This document shows positions 3,062 through 57,398 of a stretch of DNA of 64,000 nt, one piece after another; position 1 is the first letter of the stretch; every line of letters begins with the position of its first letter. Source of the stretch: Eubacterium ventriosum (GTDB taxonomy: Bacteria; Bacillota; Clostridia; Lachnospirales; Lachnospiraceae); NCBI RefSeq assembly GCF_025150745.1, contig NZ_CP102282.1, positions 2,305,501-2,369,500 of the forward strand, read 5' to 3'. The position numbers were made by a program, and so were the translations under genes. The notes under the pieces were generated by a model. It did not search any database, was not told the DNA's origin, and saw only the letters and a program-made list of their open reading frames with translations.

Positions 3062-4300
3062 TTATCTAAGCATAAAATTCTTTAACTGCTTGCGATTTTC
3101 TATATTTAATTTGTTAAATACACAGGTCAGATGTTGCTTAACTGTTCTTGGAGTGATTTCCAAATATTCTGAAATTTCTTTATTTGTCCAACCTCTGTTA
3201 GCAAGCATTGCAATAGTAAATTCAGTTGTTGTCAGATTATCAGCCACATCCTCATTAGTATCAGGATTATGTATTCGGCGCCATCCTGCACTAAACTTGT
3301 ATGTAATATTAATTATCCTTGCATAATCTTCAGGATAATCTTTCTTCATGCAAGTTTCTATTAATCCCTGCAAAAGCCCATGATGTTCACCTATACCTTC
3401 TATTAGATTATCCGGCCTTGAAATCTCCCATACTTTCATAAAGTATACCTTAGCTTTATCCGTTTCTTTAAGGTTCATTAAATCCATTGCAACAACAAGA
3501 TTTAAATAAATCATAGCTATTGGATATACCTTGCTACAAGTCATAAGACAGGTCTGTACTATTCCTAAAGAACGCTGATAATCTTTAACCAAATATGCTT
3601 TGTGTGCCAAAACATAGGCTCCCCACAACTGCATTCCCTTAGTAAATTCTGATAAATATTCAGCTAAAGGTGGTAAATCTCCAACAGGAATATGTAACAA
3701 CGTATGTGCTGCTGTTGCTACAAATACACAACAGGCTCTTGTTTTCTTATCTGTTTCTTCTAGCATTGCTTCTTTAAGATATTCCTTTAACCTTTCAAGT
3801 CCAAATCTTGCCGAATGTATTCTATCAAGAGAAAGATTGGCAAATGTATATATCAGGCTTGCTGACAATTTAAGCATTATATCTTCGCAATTTAAATACA
3901 TTTCAGCATATTCAACTGCTTTTTCGTGCCTTCCACTAAAATAATAGTATTCAGCATATGCCATTTCTTTCTGTGGAACATCATCTATACTTTCTATAAA
4001 TTCTATGCACCTTCCTAGTGGAAATGCCGAACTCATAAGTAACATTGGTACTCGTGTTGTATGCTTTTCTTTTATTATTTCTTTTTTATCTGTAATCCCC
4101 AGCAAATAATCTGCAGAAACTCCAAACAACTTTGTTAACTTAATAAGTATGTCGCTACTTATAGTCTTGGTATCTCCGTTTAATATTCGTGTGATTTGTG
4201 ATGGTGTAATTTCCAGCCTTCTTGCCAATTCACTTTTTGAAATACCTGCTTCTACACATAATTCTGCAATAATTTCTGACGGTGTTTTATTTGAGTCCAT
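3062..4300 (-). CDS. Chimeric regulator: N-terminal XRE HTH, helical middle, C-terminal LuxR HTH
   Basis: About 412 residues with two different DNA-binding domains. The XRE HTH (about residues 3-60) shows ELCVEAGISKSELARRLEIT and ITRILNGDTKTIS. A long helical region (about 80-340) looks like TPR repeats. The LuxR/GerE HTH (about 345-410) shows TEFTIAMLANRGWTNKEISE and RTVKQHLTCVFNKLNI. The ATG at 4300 has AAGGAG 9 nt upstream; upstream in-frame Met codons do not. A perfect palindrome overlaps the -35 of its promoter (4325-4361), pointing to autoregulation. The gene stands alone, with a terminator-like hairpin after it. The signal sensed and the targets are unknown. Confidence 0.85.
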   Translation of the reverse strand: MDSNKTPSEIIAELCVEAGISKSELARRLEITPSQITRILNGDTKTISSDILIKLTKLFGVSADYLLGITDKKEIIKEKHTTRVPMLLMSSAFPLGRCIEFIESIDDVPQKEMAYAEYYYFSGRHEKAVEYAEMYLNCEDIMLKLSASLIYTFANLSLDRIHSARFGLERLKEYLKEAMLEETDKKTRACCVFVATAAHTLLHIPVGDLPPLAEYLSEFTKGMQLWGAYVLAHKAYLVKDYQRSLGIVQTCLMTCSKVYPIAMIYLNLVVAMDLMNLKETDKAKVYFMKVWEISRPDNLIEGIGEHHGLLQGLIETCMKKDYPEDYARIINITYKFSAGWRRIHNPDTNEDVADNLTTTEFTIAMLANRGWTNKEISEYLEITPRTVKQHLTCVFNKLNIENRKQLKNFMLR

Positions 4301-5073: not shown

Positions 5074-5403
5074 TTCGGTTTTTCTGATATTTTATGTGAT
5101 ATAATCCTAATAAAACTGTTGAAAAGAGCTTAATTGTTTGTATGCAAAAATAGCGGCTCGCATTTTCTTCTGCAAAAGTTATTGCAACAACTTTTCAGAA
5201 ATCACAATGATTTTGTTGCGTTAAGTTTTTCAATTAAAGGTGTACTTGTTGTTGATAAGTAAATTCTACTTTTTTAGCTGTCCCAAAAACACCCCTTGCA
5301 ACGCTAATCTCGCAAAATTTAATTGCAATTTAAACTGCTAGTTTTTCCATGCTACTACTTTTGCAAACTAGCAGTTACCTTTGCAAAAGTGTATATTTTA
5401 AGT

Positions 5404-6770
5404 AGTCTTTGTTTGATCAGAAAGGAGGCTTTTATGCCAAAACAATTATCCTTATCTGAACGAATAATTATTGAACGTATGATTAGTAAAGACTACTCTT
5501 TTGCCTCTATTGGTAGAAATCTTGAACGTTCAGCTTCTACCATTTCTAGAGAAGTAATTAAATATCGATGCTTTGTTGATAGAATTCCTCTCCCTGGCGA
5601 GAATGATTGTACTCACAAAAACTCTTGCCTAAAGAATTCTATCTGCGATGATGTTGGAGTACATGGATGTTATGGATATCGTTGTAAGCGATGTCCTGAA
5701 GATCGTATATGCACAAATATTTGCGCTTCTTATGAATCTTCTCAATGTCCTCTTTTAGATAAACCTCCTTATGTCTGCACTAATTGTTCTATGCTTAAAC
5801 AATGTAAACGTAACAAGGCTTACTATACAGCTCACAGAGCTGATGCTGCTCATCACAAAAGCATTCGCAATGCTCATTCCGGTGTCAGAAAAACTCCATC
5901 TGAATTAAGAGCAATTGCTGATATAATTGAACCTCTTATTGCTAAAGGTCAATCTCTAAATCACATTTGTGCTACGCACTTAGATGAATTGGGTATATCA
6001 GAGAGAACTCTCTATAATTACATTGACCAGGGTGTTTTTAAGGTTCGTAATATTGACCTTCCTAAAAAGGTTGTTTACAGGCAACGTAGGCCTAAAAAGG
6101 TTCTTACCAAGCTTGAATACCAATATAGACAAGGTCGCACCTATGAAGATTTCAAATCCTTCATGGAAGCAAACCCAGATCTACCTGTTGTAGAAATGGA
6201 TACTGTAAAGGGTGGTCGTAATAAGGGAAAAGTATTTCTTACTATGATTTTTAGAAGGACAAGTTTTATGCTTATCTTTCTAATGAACGATGGAACTCAG
6301 GATAGTGTAATTCAGATTTTTGATTCCTTAACTGAGATTCTTGGAGTCTCTCTATTCAAGAGATTATTTCCTGTTATCTTGACCGATAACGGCGTTGAAT
6401 TCAAAAATCCTCAAGCACTTGAACACACAAGAACAGGGCTTTCCAGAACTCGTGTATTCTTTTGTGATCCTCAAGCTTCGTGGCAAAAACCACAGGTCGA
6501 AAACAACCATCGTTTAATACGAAGAATACTTCCTAAAGGTGTTAGTTTTTCACCCCTCACTGTTGCTGACGTAACGTTAATCTGTTGTCATATAAACAGT
6601 GTTCTTCGTGAAAATTTAGATAACAAAACACCTTTTGATTTAATGGACTCCAAAGACGGAAAAAAGTTATTGTCTTTGCTACAACTTTCACCTATTCCAC
6701 CCGATGAAGTTACTTTGAGTCCAAAGCTACTTAAGCGTTAATTAACATTTTAATTGATCAAACAAAGACT
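5404..6770 (+). mobile_element. IS30-family insertion sequence
   Basis: A single IS30-type transposase gene (5434-6741) is bracketed by perfect 16-bp terminal inverted repeats: AGTCTTTGTTTGATCA at 5404-5419 and its reverse complement at 6755-6770. The length between repeats, about 1.37 kb, fits the family, and the frame is intact, so the element may be active. No short target duplication is evident next to the repeats (AGT on the left, CCC on the right), so the true tips could lie a few bases outside. It is one of few plus-strand genes in the window. Confidence 0.85.
5434..6741 (+). CDS. IS30-family transposase
   Basis: 435 residues; catalyses cut-and-paste movement of its element. The N-terminal HTH (LSLSERIIIERMISKDYSFA, then STISREV) is the IS30 helix pair that binds the ends. 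Residues about 55-125 are Cys-rich (CKRCPEDRIC, CTNCSMLKQC), probably a zinc-binding insert seen in clostridial IS30 enzymes. The DDE catalytic triad is visible as D256 (VVEMDTV), D318 (LTDNGVEF) and E356 (PQVENNHR). The ATG at 5434 has AAAGGAGG 5 nt upstream and lies just inside the left inverted repeat; the in-frame start at 5323 would be outside the element. No frameshift or stop, so it looks functional. Confidence 0.93.
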   Translation: MPKQLSLSERIIIERMISKDYSFASIGRNLERSASTISREVIKYRCFVDRIPLPGENDCTHKNSCLKNSICDDVGVHGCYGYRCKRCPEDRICTNICASYESSQCPLLDKPPYVCTNCSMLKQCKRNKAYYTAHRADAAHHKSIRNAHSGVRKTPSELRAIADIIEPLIAKGQSLNHICATHLDELGISERTLYNYIDQGVFKVRNIDLPKKVVYRQRRPKKVLTKLEYQYRQGRTYEDFKSFMEANPDLPVVEMDTVKGGRNKGKVFLTMIFRRTSFMLIFLMNDGTQDSVIQIFDSLTEILGVSLFKRLFPVILTDNGVEFKNPQALEHTRTGLSRTRVFFCDPQASWQKPQVENNHRLIRRILPKGVSFSPLTVADVTLICCHINSVLRENLDNKTPFDLMDSKDGKKLLSLLQLSPIPPDEVTLSPKLLKR

Positions 6771-7964: not shown

Positions 7965-8432
7965 TGTACCATATATGATGTTTTTCACTTGTATGGTACA
8001 GATTTGTTCTTCCCTGAGCTGGACAAGCTCTCTATCTGTACCATATGCGAATTTTTCTACTTATATGGTACAAATTTCTTCTACTCTGAGTCGGAACAAA
8101 CTTTCATTTGTACCATGTGCAAATTTTTTCTCTTGTATGGTACAGATTTGTTCTTCCCCGAGCTGGAACAAGCTCTCATTTGTACCATATGCGAATTTTT
8201 TCTCTTGTATGGTACAGATTTGTTCTTCCCCGAGCTGGAACAAACTTTCATATGTACCATATGCAAATTTTTTCTCTTGTATGGTACAGATTTGTTCTTC
8301 CCCGAGCTGGAACAAGCTTTCATATGTACCATATACGAAATTTTCTTCTTATATGGTACATATTTCTTCTGCTCTGAGCTGGACAAGCTCTCTATCTGTA
8401 CCATATATGAAATTTTTCGCGTATATGGTACA
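7965..8432 (+). repeat. Hairpin array A, copy 1: seven units, exact 72-bp period
   Basis: Seven copies of a 36-nt hairpin (TGTACCATA ... TATGGTACA, loop about 16-18 nt) start at 7965, 8037, 8109, 8181, 8253, 8325 and 8397, always 72 bp apart. The 36-nt spacers carry a weaker TTGTTC/GAACAA pair. Units differ by many substitutions but no indels. Because 72 is a multiple of 3, long frames stay open on both strands (repeating 24 residues such as VPYANFFSCMVQICS), but the arms are better conserved than the spacers and no SD precedes them, so coding is doubtful. A reverse-complement copy lies at 57003-57398. Confidence 0.85.
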
Positions 8433-8477
8433 GATTTCTTCTAGTTTTAATTTGAGAATAAACTCAAACTTATAATC

Positions 8478-8588
8478 TGCCTCATAACAAACAATTCTTT
8501 AGTTCCATGGGGTAATTATCATTTAATTTCAATAGATTCAATCTTATAATCTGCTCCATAACAAACAATTCTTCAATCTTATGGGGTA
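8478..8588 (+). repeat. Hairpin array B, copy 1: two units, 74-bp period
   Basis: Two 37-nt hairpins, at 8478-8514 and 8552-8588, have 5' arms TGCCTCAT and TGCTCCATA and 3' arms ATGGGGTA and TATGGGGTA. They are 74 bp apart (37-nt hairpin plus 37-nt spacer). On the plus strand the arms pair using G-U wobbles. The units are the reverse complement of those at 56814-56998 and lie directly beside array A in both loci. Confidence 0.75.
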
Positions 8589-8730: not shown

Positions 8731-10167
8731 CTATTTACTTTCCTGTTTCTTTTTTTCAAAGTGTTCTTTTGTTTCTTTTGCAACTACACCACTTAATGTA
8801 AATAATGCAATAATATTTGGTATTGCCATTAATCCGTTAAAGATATCGGCAATTGTCCATACTGCCTTTACAGTCATATATGGTCCGATAAATACTGCTA
8901 AGATGTATAACCATCTGTATACCTGAACTGCTGTTTTGCTCTTGTTTGATAAGTATTCCAAACATCTTTCACCATAGTAATCCCAACCAAGGATTGTTGT
9001 GAATGCGAAGAATACCAAACATACCATTAAGATAAATGATGAAACTTCGGCAGGTAAGAAACTTAAACCATTCTGGAATGCATGTGTTGTTACCTGAACT
9101 CCTTCAAGTCCTACCACTTTATATGAGTCCATCATTACAATTGAAAGACCTGTTAATGTACAAACAATGATTGTATCAATAAATGTACCTGTCATTGTTA
9201 CAAGTCCCTGACGAACAGGTTCTTTTGTTTTTGCTGCTGCAGCTGCAATAGGTGCTGAACCAAGTCCGGCTTCGTTAGAGAAAATACCTCTTGCAATACC
9301 TTTCTGCATTGATATTGCTATTGAAGACAATACACCACCTGCCACTGCTTTAACACCAAAAGCATATTCAACAATTGTTGCTAATGCTCCCGGAAGTTTT
9401 TCAATATTAGTTACAATCAAAACTAATACTGTAACGATATATAATATAGCCATAAATGGTACTATAACCTGAGAAACACTTGATATTCTCTTAATACCAC
9501 CAATGACAACTAAACCTACACAAATAGCTAATGCAAAAGCTGTAATAACTATGGCTATTGAATAATCAGTTCCTAAAATACTAACTGTATCTTCTTTGTT
9601 AGGATCAAAAAAAGACTGAACTGCTGATGCGATTCCGTTAACCTGTGTAAATGTTCCGATACCAAATAAACCTACACAAGCTCCAAAAAACGAAAAAACT
9701 TTTGCAAGCCATTTCCACTTATGTCCCATACCATTTTCTATGTAATAGAACGGTCCACCAAGAACATGACCTTCCTCATCAATAGTTCTGTAACGAACTG
9801 CCAAAAATCCTTCTGCATACTTAGTAGCCATTCCAAAGAATGCTGCTACCCACATCCAAAATAACGCTCCCGGTCCACCTACTGCAGTACCAAGTGCTGT
9901 ACATCCGATGGCTGTTGCTACACCTACAATGTTACCTGTACCGATTGTTGCTGATAATGCTGTACATAGTGCTCCAAAACTACTAACTTCCCCATGTCCG
10001 TCTTCTTCGTTCTTAAACATATACTTAAGTGCCTTAGGCAAATGCACTATCTGTAATAGTCTTAACCGAAAAGTAAGGTAGATGCCTGCTGCAAGAATCA
10101 ACACAATAAGTGGGATTCCCCAAACTAAATCATCTACCTTAACTAAAAAATCTGTAAAATCGCTCAT
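8731..10167 (-). CDS. Sodium:alanine/glycine symporter, AGCS family
   Basis: 478-residue integral membrane protein with about 10-11 hydrophobic helices; it imports small neutral amino acids with Na+. Family hallmarks are TALSATIGTGNIVGVATAIG, GGPGALFWMWVAAFFGMATK and the GIFSNEAGLGSAPIAAAAAK loop. A glycine riboswitch lies immediately upstream (10179-10325), which points to glycine as a substrate or to export or import tuned to glycine level. The start at 10167 has AGGAGG right after the riboswitch. A second AGCS gene is divergent at 10984-12366 (about 40-50% similar by eye). Substrate choice between Ala and Gly is inferred only from the riboswitch. Confidence 0.92.
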   Translation of the reverse strand: MSDFTDFLVKVDDLVWGIPLIVLILAAGIYLTFRLRLLQIVHLPKALKYMFKNEEDGHGEVSSFGALCTALSATIGTGNIVGVATAIGCTALGTAVGGPGALFWMWVAAFFGMATKYAEGFLAVRYRTIDEEGHVLGGPFYYIENGMGHKWKWLAKVFSFFGACVGLFGIGTFTQVNGIASAVQSFFDPNKEDTVSILGTDYSIAIVITAFALAICVGLVVIGGIKRISSVSQVIVPFMAILYIVTVLVLIVTNIEKLPGALATIVEYAFGVKAVAGGVLSSIAISMQKGIARGIFSNEAGLGSAPIAAAAAKTKEPVRQGLVTMTGTFIDTIIVCTLTGLSIVMMDSYKVVGLEGVQVTTHAFQNGLSFLPAEVSSFILMVCLVFFAFTTILGWDYYGERCLEYLSNKSKTAVQVYRWLYILAVFIGPYMTVKAVWTIADIFNGLMAIPNIIALFTLSGVVAKETKEHFEKKKQESK

Positions 10168-10178
10168 AATATTCCTCC

Positions 10179-10325
10179 TGTCCTTTTGCCTGAGAGATTA
10201 GTGATGCTTCTAAAAATTTAAATATCACCTTACACCTTCGGCGCCTGAGTTAACACTGCCATATTCAAAATCTTATTTCCTGCACTTCTTTAACTCCCCT
10301 ATCTAATCTAAAGAATCTCTCCAAA
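10179..10325 (-). promoter_or_regulatory. Glycine riboswitch (gcvT motif)
   Basis: Read on the minus strand: 5' P1 GGAGAGATT, a variable region, the core GCGCCGAAGGTGTAA, then 3' P1 AATCTCTCAGGCAAAAGGAC, all diagnostic of the glycine aptamer. P1 AGAGATT pairs with AATCTCT. The aptamer ends at the SD (CAGGAGG) of the symporter gene, so control is probably at translation initiation. A further TGGAGAGGTC about 20-30 nt upstream looks like the start of a second aptamer, but no second core follows it, so one complete aptamer is supported. Confidence 0.9.
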
Positions 10326-10389
10326 ATAAATTCTGAAACGTTTGTGTCATCAGACCTCTCCAGTGGTTGTCTATTCTACTTTTTTTGAC

Positions 10390-43249: not shown

Positions 43250-44992
43250 CTATTTTCTTACTTTAACTTTCTTAATTTTACTCCAATCACCTGTTACTTT
43301 CACATTGCCTGACTTAACTACATATGCACGTACCTGAATATAATAAGTTTTCTTCTTAAGTTTCTTCAAAGTCTTTTTTACAGATTTTGTTGTTACTGTT
43401 TTAGCCTTTTTCAACTTTTTGTTTGTTGAATATTTTATCTGATAGCCTGTAACACCTTTTACCTTTTTAATATTTATCTTAATATTTCTGTTGTTCTTTG
43501 AACGTACTACCTTTTTTACGCTTACTTTTCCCGGCCTGCTTACTACAACCTTAGATGTAGTTGTCACTCCATTACCAGTTGTTGTTACTCTATTCCCCGT
43601 TGTTGTCACTCCATTATTAGTTGTTGTCTTTTCTTCACTTGGTAGTGTTGTTTTATTTGTTGTGCTTTCTCCTTTATTATAATTAGGATCAGGAATCTGT
43701 GTTGTTGTCTTAAATGATACATTAGATAAAGTAATGTTTGCTGCTGAATTAGTTGCTGCTGCATCACCATCACACTTTCCCATTCCAAAGTATAAGTCAA
43801 GGACGCCTTCCATATCTTCTGCCAAAGTTACTTGTCTTGAGAAGTTATAAGGCACTCTGGCTTTTAAGTCAATATATTCACCAAATATTTCTTCGTCGCC
43901 ATCTCCAGCTACTTTTACAAAAACCCTCTTATTCACATCAGATGTCATTGTAAAACTATAGTTATATGTTCTGCCCGGATAGTAATGTAATCCTTTTAAG
44001 TACTGCTGAACTCCCCACTGTGAATTACCTATTGATGTAATGTTCATTGTTGCGCCTGTTACTGCTTTGTCTGTAGATTTTGATGTACCTGAAGCCCCTG
44101 CCCAGTCAGAGCCGAAATAAGACCCCCATTTTTCACTACATGTTTCAACAGCATCTTCTGTTACAGTAATCATAGGTCCCGTATACTTAGTTGTTGTTTC
44201 TTCAACTTTCTTATATGCTCTAACCCAGTCAACTTCCATTGTTGCCGGGAAAGCTGTTTCATCAATGTCATATCCCGGCCACTGACCGCCAATTGCCATA
44301 TTAAAGATAATAAAGTATTCCTTTCTTACCTCGCTAAATGAGTCGTTTGAAACATCCATCGTTCTATAAACTTTACCATCCACATACCATCTTAACTTGT
44401 CTGCTGTCCATTCAACTCCATATACATGATATTCTGTTCTGTCTGCCACTGCTACTTGACTTCCTGAATCTGCGTTATTATTTCCCGGATCATTAAACCA
44501 ATGCAATGTTCCATATACAAGATTTTCATCATTAATTGCTTCCATAATGTCTATTTCACCACATTTAGGCCAACCTACAGAATCCTGATTTGCTCCAAGC
44601 ATCCAAAACGCAGGCCAAACACCTTTAAACTTTGGCATTTTAATTCTCGCTTCAATCTTTCCATATTTGAAGTTCTTCTTATTCTTTGTTGTAATTCTTG
44701 AAGATGTATATTTCATTCTGCCATAGTCTTCACGCTTGGCTGTAATCTTCATAGTACCATTACTTACCGTAATATTTCTGTCAGTATAATACTGCTGTTC
44801 GTTATTACCCCAGCCCCAGCTTCCTGTTCCTATTTCATAGTTCCATGTGTTGGTGTCAAGAGAATTACCATTAAACTCATCTGACCAAACCAATTCATAA
44901 TTGTCTGCTGCTTTAACAGTATTACTAAAAGCAAATACCGTTCCAATGACAGAAAATGTCAATAAAGCCTTTGTCAATAAACTCTTCTTCAT
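43250..44992 (-). CDS. Secreted GH16 beta-glucanase with carbohydrate-binding and FnIII-like domains
   Basis: 580 residues. Signal peptide (MKKSLLTKALLTFSVIGTVF, cut after VKA). GH16 catalytic domain (about 30-275) with the active-site GEIDIMEAIN: nucleophile E146, D148, acid/base E151, the laminarinase (beta-1,3) type. Residues about 290-440 look like a carbohydrate-binding module. A Thr/Asn linker with TTTGNxV repeats leads to the C-terminal FnIII-like Lys-rich domain shared with the proteins at 1085 and 51091. AAGGAG sets the start at 44992. Likely digests beta-1,3- or mixed-linked glucans outside the cell. Confidence 0.9.
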   Translation of the reverse strand: MKKSLLTKALLTFSVIGTVFAFSNTVKAADNYELVWSDEFNGNSLDTNTWNYEIGTGSWGWGNNEQQYYTDRNITVSNGTMKITAKREDYGRMKYTSSRITTKNKKNFKYGKIEARIKMPKFKGVWPAFWMLGANQDSVGWPKCGEIDIMEAINDENLVYGTLHWFNDPGNNNADSGSQVAVADRTEYHVYGVEWTADKLRWYVDGKVYRTMDVSNDSFSEVRKEYFIIFNMAIGGQWPGYDIDETAFPATMEVDWVRAYKKVEETTTKYTGPMITVTEDAVETCSEKWGSYFGSDWAGASGTSKSTDKAVTGATMNITSIGNSQWGVQQYLKGLHYYPGRTYNYSFTMTSDVNKRVFVKVAGDGDEEIFGEYIDLKARVPYNFSRQVTLAEDMEGVLDLYFGMGKCDGDAAATNSAANITLSNVSFKTTTQIPDPNYNKGESTTNKTTLPSEEKTTTNNGVTTTGNRVTTTGNGVTTTSKVVVSRPGKVSVKKVVRSKNNRNIKINIKKVKGVTGYQIKYSTNKKLKKAKTVTTKSVKKTLKKLKKKTYYIQVRAYVVKSGNVKVTGDWSKIKKVKVRK

Positions 44993-48904: not shown

Positions 48905-49858
48905 TTAGATTTTTCTCTTGTCTACCGGATGACAATTGTAATTCTTATACGATAAATTATAGTACTTGTTATAATCCTTTGCTCTTGCAAATAAAGCATC
49001 ATATACTTTTCCGTTTAATTCAACCCATGCATGTTCTGAATCATGTGCCACATAAACATCCTTGTATCCTGCTTCGTGAAGTAAAAATGCAAGTGCTGCT
49101 GATTCTGAAACACAACAGCCATCTCCGTGGATAAAAATATCGTCTGCGAAAGTTGACTCCCAACCTTTCTGCTTATAAATCTTTTTAAGGAATCTATATC
49201 TCTTATATGGACGTTTTGCAATCCAGTCAAAACATTTTCTTAGTTTCTGCTGCTTTGTATCTGTATATTTGCATAATTCCTTTAACTGCTTTCTTGCTCT
49301 CATCATTGTTTTGATTTTGGCAACACTAAGGTCAGTCTGCTTAGCCTTTCCGGCTTTGTCAAGTTTAATGCCGTCAACAGTACATTTCTTAGCCATCTTT
49401 CCATTAGTACGTCCGAAATAGTAATAGTCCTTTTTGTACTTAGCCCAACCTGTAACCATTACTCCTTTTTTATCAAAAAGGTATGTTTTATTCTTTACTG
49501 TAACTAACTGGTTCTTTATTTTTTTGCCTGATATCTTGCAATAAGTCTTGCCCTTTTTAGTTTTAAATTTTGCAACAGGTTTTTTCTGTTTCTTACTGTT
49601 TGCTTTTATTTTTTTATTATTTGAATCTGTGTTATTTTTGTTTACAGTTTCTTTATTGTTTAAATCTGTATTGTTTTTGTTTACAGTTGTTTTCGTTACG
49701 TTACTTTTGTTTTCCGCCTGATTTGTTGTAGTTGGTGTTTTGTCATTTGTTACTGCTGTCGTCGTTACTGCGCTTATCATTCCTACGCAAATCATTACTA
49801 CCAGAAAAATCATTATTTTCTGTGTCATCTTTTTCATTCTTGTGTTCTTCTCTTTCAT
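48905..49858 (-). CDS. Secreted protein with wall-binding-like repeat and active transglutaminase-like domain
   Basis: 317 residues. Signal peptide (TQKIMIFLVVMICVGMISAV), a Thr/Asn-rich linker with NKNNTDxNNK repeats, then a glucan/choline-binding-like repeat (KTYLFDKKGVMVTGWAKYKK, DYYYFGRTNGKM). The C-terminal transglutaminase-like domain keeps its triad: Cys in DGCCVSESAALAFLLHEAGY, His in DSEHAWVELNGKVYD, and the following Asp. Could be a cross-linking or protease-type enzyme at the cell surface. Near the MBOAT/SGNH pair on the same strand (55 bp). Confidence 0.8.
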   Translation of the reverse strand: MKEKNTRMKKMTQKIMIFLVVMICVGMISAVTTTAVTNDKTPTTTNQAENKSNVTKTTVNKNNTDLNNKETVNKNNTDSNNKKIKANSKKQKKPVAKFKTKKGKTYCKISGKKIKNQLVTVKNKTYLFDKKGVMVTGWAKYKKDYYYFGRTNGKMAKKCTVDGIKLDKAGKAKQTDLSVAKIKTMMRARKQLKELCKYTDTKQQKLRKCFDWIAKRPYKRYRFLKKIYKQKGWESTFADDIFIHGDGCCVSESAALAFLLHEAGYKDVYVAHDSEHAWVELNGKVYDALFARAKDYNKYYNLSYKNYNCHPVDKRKI

Positions 49859-56813: not shown

Positions 56814-56998
56814 TACCCCATAGAAGCAAGTTTATGCATACTATGGGGTAGATTTCAAGATTCATTGTTATTGAAAATAATATGAATTGCCCCATATGAT
56901 TAAGTTTTCTCTTTTTATGTGGCAGATACAAAGATTCATCATATTCAAACTAATATGTAACTACCACATAGAACCGAGTTCTCATATTCTGTGAGGTA
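56814..56998. repeat. Hairpin array B, copy 2: three units, 74-bp period
   Basis: Hairpins of 37 nt start at 56814 (TACCCCATA/TATGGGGTA, perfect), 56888 (TGCCCCATA/TATGTGGCA) and 56962 (TACCACATAG/CTGTGAGGTA), each 74 bp apart. The units correspond to the reverse complement of 8478-8588. Array A copy 2 begins 4 nt after the last hairpin. The gap 56620-56813 holds nothing recognised. Confidence 0.75.
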
Positions 56999-57002
56999 AG
57001 GT

Positions 57003-57398
57003 TGTACCATACGAACAAGAAATTTCAAATATGGTACAGATATTAGCTTGTTCCTGCTTAACGCAGAAGAAATCTGTACCATACAAGCAAGAAATTTTAC
57101 ATATGGTACAAATACGAGCTTGTTCAATCTCAAATCAGAACAAATCTGTACCATACGAGCAACAAATTTCATATATAGTACAAATACAAGCTTGTTCAAT
57201 CTCAAATCAGAACAAATCTGTACCATATGAGCAAGAAATCTCATATATGGTACAAATATAAGTTTGTCCCAGCTCAAATCAGAAAAAATCTGTACCATAC
57301 GAGCAAGAATTTTCATATATGGTACAGATATTAGCTTCTTCCAGTTCAAACCTGAACAACTCTGTACCATATAAAAAAGAATTACCGTATATGGTACA
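57003..57398 (-). repeat. Hairpin array A, copy 2: six units, exact 72-bp period
   Basis: Hairpins TGTACCATA...TATGGTACA of 36 nt start at 57003, 57075, 57147, 57219, 57291 and 57363. Spacers of 36 nt (for example AGCTTGTTCAATCTCAAATC then AGAACAAATC) match the reverse complement of the copy-1 spacers. The third unit has TATAGTACA, the only arm mutation. The minus frame 57526-56945 stays open through it but has no SD. Just right of the array (57448-57464) is a CTTGTCC-TTT-GGACAAG hairpin. Confidence 0.85.

Follow-up and report, generated by a model that had tools for sequence, protein, structure and literature searches.

The two repeat arrays in the analysed window (a stretch of 64,000 nucleotides from Eubacterium ventriosum) belong to a dispersed class of modular, intergenic palindrome arrays, with conserved half-sites, unit lengths near whole numbers of helical turns, and a location at the ends of genes. 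The class resembles BOX and BIME repeats and appears to be a new intergenic family of that kind. The arrays may provide a phased platform on duplex DNA for a putative sequence-specific protein; this reading, in which both the binder and the function are deduced from sequence patterns, is given a probability of about one half.

Organization of the two arrays in the window

Array 1 begins with a type-A block (7965..8432, + strand) of seven 36-bp palindromes, TGTACCATA-N18-TATGGTACA, repeated every 72 bp; one of the left arms reads TGTACCATG. The following type-B block (8478..8588, + strand) is composed of two imperfect 37-bp palindromes with a period of 74 bp. Their left arms, TGCCTCAT and TGCTCCAT, are both paired with ATGGGGTA; such imperfect arms (TGCCTCAT versus ATGGGGTA, for example) are frequent in type B. 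Array 2 includes a type-B block of three 37-bp palindromes every 74 bp (56814..56998, - strand; single palindromes at 56814-56850, 56888-56924 and 56962-56998), and a type-A block of six 36-bp palindromes every 72 bp (57003..57398, - strand). Five of these six are exact, and the copy at 57147 has one base changed in the right arm. The window contains 12 exact type-A palindromes, against a chance expectation of 0.00 in 100 shuffles. The two arrays are oppositely oriented and have the A-then-B order in common, the A-to-B direction being + in array 1. Inverted repeats of 328 nt (74% complementary) and 351 nt (72%) were found between them. The sequence-only reading had described two real, non-chance composites, placed in opposite orientation with equal internal order; the coordinates and shuffles confirm the former, and the coordinates and inverted repeats the latter.

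Several other features of the window were observed. An ORF of 472 aa (5323-6741, + strand), located 1.2 kb from array 1, has an HTH_38 domain, presumably as in the IS30-type transposases. A glycine riboswitch aptamer (10168-10334, - strand) lies upstream of a Na/Ala symporter gene (8731-10167). Other short tandem repeats are found at 43557-43627 and 49609-49688, with periods of 21 and 39 bp, respectively. A mobile island bounded by the two arrays was rejected: in a domain scan of 26 window ORFs, those scanned between the arrays were ordinary (fatty-acid, ATP-synthase, PTS and others).

Copies across the genome

The genome of this strain (G000) is one contig of 2,856,089 bp, and contains 32 exact type-A palindromes, all within six arrays and spaced by 72 bp or double that. 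The genome-wide covariance-model search that the sequence-only reading had proposed was run, and it recovered 35 type-A units, again in the six arrays. Further copies therefore exist, and the arms are their best-kept part; neither units confined to the window with decaying arms nor a match to a known transposon or gene family, the outcomes named as refuting, was found. The best type-A match outside the six arrays had 22.8 bits (E 0.24; 150 of 6314 first-look candidates scored) and revealed no further copy. Moreover, no solitary type-A copy was found in G000 by the exact-palindrome and covariance-model searches. The six arrays form three pairs, whose members are 49-122 kb apart. Type B lies on one constant side of type A in five of the six; in the sixth (162.8 kb) its place is taken by a third type, ACCACAA...TTGTGGT, repeated every 95-96 bp. 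The proposal that the composite is an inherited unit is thus supported by six dispersed arrays, five of which have the A-then-B order.

Single TGTACCATA half-sites occur at 106 places in G000. Among 100 of these listed, 63 are inside arrays and 37 outside, compared with 20 for the reversed pattern and about 25 obtained by scaling the window shuffles. There is possibly a mild excess of scattered half-sites, and this excess over the control suggests that the scattered TGTACCATA sites may matter too.

The exact type-A palindrome was found in none of 22 other genomes of the same genus. A same-arm search over 40 genomes gave matches only in G000, plus one 28-nt match in G030; under stricter filters, model R1 had a single match among 397 genomes of the family, which was G000 itself. 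The HAD locus was inspected in 14 relatives (15 loci, some truncated by contig ends), and none of them had an array there. In a Ruminococcus MAG (L020 2068-2142), two TATGGTACA-type palindromes are located in the gap before a secreted-protein gene; these are probably ordinary operators.

Conservation of half-sites, loops and spacers

The type-A half-sites read TGTACCATA in 64 of 68 cases, counted in 34 of the 35 units (one aberrant unit with an extra base was excluded). Between the six arrays, the identity is 97-100% in the half-sites, 52% in the loops, and 39% in the spacers; about 28% is the estimate for unrelated sequence of the same composition. The earlier claim that arms and spacers match between loci consequently holds for the arms, whereas the spacers match only in part across the six arrays. 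Within an array the loops are 75% and the spacers 80% identical, and units inside one array are more alike than units from different arrays. Half-sites that are kept at separate loci, while their surroundings have drifted far, favour sequence recognition at each locus; the same pattern counts against neutral repeats and decaying dead insertions. A gapped type-B alignment was left unused for model building.

Related arrays in other loci and genomes

Two further loci with other arms were found in a sample of the same genome (20 spread stretches totalling 400 kb, partly masked and taken from outside the type-A loci); three rounds of block-shuffled stretches from this genome gave no arrays. One locus, beyond a prs-like gene, has TACCCCG arms with a period of 94 bp. 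The other is also a composite, in which units with TTACGTG arms (period 71 bp) precede units with ATTACGG arms (period 72 bp). In the same-genus sample (80 stretches from 16 genomes, about 1.5 Mb), the choice of stretches was not fully random because some contigs were known from another search; it contained 12 array loci in five of the 16 genomes (G020, G004, G008, G022 and G007), each with its own arms. No arrays were found in 333 kb from 10 genomes of other genera. A Clostridia MAG (L019) has one 94-bp array with three GTACCA-type motifs per unit (425-872), and a second array nearby, of a 27-bp repeat (1208-1350).

Six whole genomes were searched for two of the palindromes. GGCATAT palindromes numbered 27 in G020, and G000 has one, shorter; TTACATAT palindromes numbered 209 in G022 and 0 in the other five genomes. 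The reversed-pattern controls were 0 in both searches. By exact match, most of the palindromes among those listed sit in arrays, and at least one is alone in each genome (G020 C2:122613 and G022 C2:158302). Among the G022 places listed, 50 sites fall into 15 loci, which extrapolates to about 60 loci in that genome.

Some detector hits were discarded. These include two-unit hits of low complexity or other stem-loops, which were left uncounted (L083, L086, L089, L102 and L143), coding-type tandem repeats (L096, L099, L139 and a 26-bp repeat in L082), weak tandem signals (L111 and L168), and the CRISPR-like L188. In L083, a 130-bp segment with strong stem-loops occurs twice (3480-3720), just beyond an apparent T-box leader. 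The L188 array (40-640), from the same-genus genome G002, has 36-bp repeats with differing spacers. A phage origin of the arrays was also rejected: in 13 viral contigs the TGTACCAT repeats are laid out differently. The BLAST search of array 2 against plasmids and phages gave no matches. As judged from search listings, no report of such arrays in this bacterial group was found in the literature covered, which included few subscription journals.

Modular ends and turnover of the arrays

Fourteen G022 arrays were read with their flanks, three from the sampling and eleven as the first places listed. They share their ends: the right cap unit is present in 9/14, the right flank in 11/14, and the left module, by a lenient match, in 11/14. 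No target duplication was noticed by eye at these 14 arrays. By analogy, the A-then-B succession of blocks in G000 may play the same part as the G022 end modules.

The gap flanked by a purF-like gene and a radical-SAM gene (both named by eye from translations) contains an array in G008 and G007 and none in G004 and G010, in which the purF terminator almost directly abuts the promoter-like sequence of the next gene; G006 and G012 have a different arrangement there. The G008 array consists of six ATACGGTA-armed units, of which the last is imperfect, and the G007 array of four ATACCGTA-armed units. One of the eight G007 half-sites has the G008 form. The difference would follow from either a point change or inversion of the half-site, as the half-site is nearly self-complementary and the altered base lies at its centre.

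The Y1 transposase family (PF01797), to which the RAYTs belong, was also searched. The array-bearing genomes G000, G020 and G008 gave no match; among the other array-bearing genomes, G004 has two matches, G022 a broken piece, and G007 one match below the cut-off. G014 and G015, whose sampled stretches gave no counted array, have matches too, and G005 has a broken piece. This mismatch in both directions indicates that the transposase and the arrays do not track each other.

Genomic location

The location was counted for 20 of 21 loci with both neighbours called by simple ORF calling (L019 was dropped). Twelve arrays lie between tandem genes, eight between convergent genes, and none between divergent genes. 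The 80 control gaps of at least 150 bp in the same stretches (stretch totals minus arrays) comprise 57 tandem, 7 convergent and 16 divergent gaps. The convergent excess (Fisher, p=0.0018) and the divergent deficit (p=0.037) are both consistent with the position of the arrays, which sit at the 3' ends of genes. Their direction relative to the neighbouring genes is variable, and several are positioned beyond a terminator-like hairpin, read from sequence, of the neighbouring gene.

Helical phasing of the unit lengths

The periods of 14 families are 53, 62.8-64.3, 71-74 and 94-95.5 bp, which correspond to about 5, 6, 7 and 9 turns of a 10.5-bp helix; the average periods of two G004 families were read by eye. 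The resultant length is maximal (0.812) at a trial helix of 10.3-10.4 bp, and is 0.808 with phase 0 at 10.5 bp. None of 20,000 random sets, with periods drawn evenly from 50-100 bp, reached the observed phasing; this idea arose after the first eight periods, the classes are few, and related families are not independent. The phasing has p=0.001 when the four period classes alone are used, and p=2e-5 for eight species-by-class values. For the five families found after the idea it has p=8.5e-5, with four of the five in classes already seen. G020 also has 64- and 73-bp steps (about 6 and 7 turns) within one array, which stands outside the phasing test.

Folding, covariation and coding potential

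Both strands of array 1 fold more strongly than their shuffles, with z of -8.6 and -11.9 (20 shuffles each); any palindrome array must fold so, and repeats of this type can be predicted to fold strongly without forming a working RNA. Covariation of the stems beyond shuffles was found in none of three families. In type A, 94.4% of the stem cells are paired versus 95.1% in shuffles, and one pair is changed on both sides versus 2.3. In type B (14 units), 101/126 cells are paired versus 104.0; for the inner pairs of G022 (47 distinct palindromes), the values are 219/329 and 223.4. The second position of the type-B stems is A-C in 5, A-T in 4, G-T in 3 and G-C in 2 units; the half-sites vary independently, like duplex binding sites. 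The covarying arms that the sequence-only reading had hoped for did not appear within a family, and the arms differ between families and species.

The absence of covariation in the three families speaks against the multi-hairpin RNA that had been offered as one option. So do the independent type-B half-sites, the promoter-like sites, which are not in excess at the window arrays, and the terminator-like sequences, of which array 1 contains one weak match (8160-8175). A known RNA family was excluded for the window arrays, as neither has an Rfam match at gathering score; the sole match in the window is the glycine riboswitch. A protein-coding array was rejected as well: synonymous codon changes exceed non-synonymous ones in 0/36 frame rows (six arrays, six frames), and the type-B period of 74 bp is not divisible by three.

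Possible roles of the arrays

In the duplex-platform reading, the two window loci represent a dispersed modular repeat that is non-coding and located where transcription units end, on their 3' side. Its tandem units vary in number, are enclosed by end modules, and each contain a single palindrome made of two inverted half-sites (here TGTACCATA). A species-specific putative DNA-binding protein would recognize the half-sites in duplex DNA, occupy one palindrome after the next along the same helix face, and assemble along the array. Most likely, the array would then act locally at gene ends, as a topological or nucleoid platform. The modular element may have spread by copying, and individual arrays may have gained or lost units. 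The phased protein-binding site is the option of the earlier reading that survives best, with a protein and a function that remain putative. It is rather doubtful, and more speculative, that each species of the genus has a private half-site whose helically phased arrays lie where transcription units end, and that a putative fast-evolving protein reads it, such that site and reader would change together and the arrays would organize or insulate the chromosome. A genus with species-own arms, arms kept while the rest drifts, and units near one helix face offers natural replicates for finding the reader protein, and also for testing a role at gene ends.

The arrays might also be purely selfish, non-autonomous (MITE-like) mobile repeats, whose half-sites serve a transposase or recombinase without any use to the host; we regard this as a minority possibility that deserves some weight. 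The species-specific arms, the high numbers in G022 (209 palindromes) and G020 (27), the end modules, and the presence or absence at one orthologous gap are consistent with it. Gene ends might simply be tolerated sites, and Y1 transposase matches exist in the array-bearing G004 (two) and, as a broken piece, in G022. However, dispersed copies of a selfish repeat should decay evenly, whereas the arms are 97-100% identical between arrays and the spacers 39%. The missing solitary type-A copies in G000, the missing target duplications by eye at the 14 G022 arrays, and the PF01797 searches without a match in G000, G020 and G008 also argue against it. Neutral minisatellites, kept uniform through slippage and gene conversion, would account for units that are more alike within arrays than between them; homogenization between loci would have preserved the loops and spacers too, but only the arms are preserved, so that this explanation is scarcely credible.

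A transcribed multi-hairpin RNA working through its stems, as a sponge, stabilizer or attenuator, is improbable. Its predicted folding is strong on both strands of array 1, one inner position of the stem shows both U-G and U-A pairs on the A-to-B strand, and a location at gene ends would suit it. However, no compensatory change exceeds the shuffles in the three families, the direction relative to neighbouring genes is inconstant, several arrays lie beyond the terminator-like hairpin of the neighbouring gene, and the window arrays have neither an Rfam match nor enriched promoter-like sites. The arrays are very unlikely to be chromosomal sites of a centromere or domain type (compare sopC) at which a partition protein or a loop-anchoring protein binds. 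Tandem units with one inverted repeat each, the phasing, and the three pairs of type-A loci 49-122 kb apart would agree with such sites; several arm families in one genome and about 60 extrapolated loci in G022 would not.

Comparison with known repeat systems

The statement that no element of this kind has been described was too strong, because pneumococcal BOX elements and BIMEs share much of the anatomy. To our knowledge, no agreed function has emerged for BOX and BIME repeats, although both have been known for a long time. In the sopC site of plasmid F, a single locus beside sopAB, every tandem unit has a short inverted repeat to which one protein binds. The arrays here also have tandem units with one inverted repeat each, but they occupy many chromosomal loci and have several arm families. 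A CRISPR array combines identical repeats and unique spacers with cas genes. The present arrays do not fit this, their spacers being 80% alike within an array; the CRISPR-like L188, with its differing spacers, provides a contrast.

REP/BIME elements are described (PMC2817692, PMC3733652) as regularly spaced palindromes, including hybrid arrays of two palindromes, which are species-specific and located mainly in tandem or convergent gaps. The present arrays are likewise regularly spaced and species-specific, have two palindrome types, and lie mostly in tandem or convergent gaps. They differ in several respects: by inspection, the unit edges of types A, B and G022 have no GTAG/CGTC tag, the type-A loop is 18 nt long (those of G022 are longer too), whereas most REP loops are very short, and no solitary type-A copy was found. 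The tag, the very short loop and a cognate RAYT transposase (PF01797, without a match in G000, G020 and G008) are defining marks of REP/BIME. Complementary stem changes, as reported for some REPs, are absent from the stems here. A REP/BIME family would be expected to exceed 100 copies per genome; the counts here are 35 type-A units in G000 and 209 palindromes in G022.

The pneumococcal BOX element (boxA-boxBn-boxC; PMC3049150) has end modules flanking a variable tandem array, is intergenic with an excess between convergent genes, can be crossed by open frames, and varies in complement between strains. The G022 arrays resemble it in having a left module, variable tandem units and a right module, and the arrays of G000 in the A-then-B order of five of six. 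The excess between convergent genes is also shared (8/20 versus 7/80, p=0.0018). The stems here show no covariation beyond shuffles, in contrast to a conserved RNA fold with compensatory pairs. Unlike BOX, the present arrays come from another bacterial group, have arms that differ from species to species, and have unit lengths near whole helical turns.
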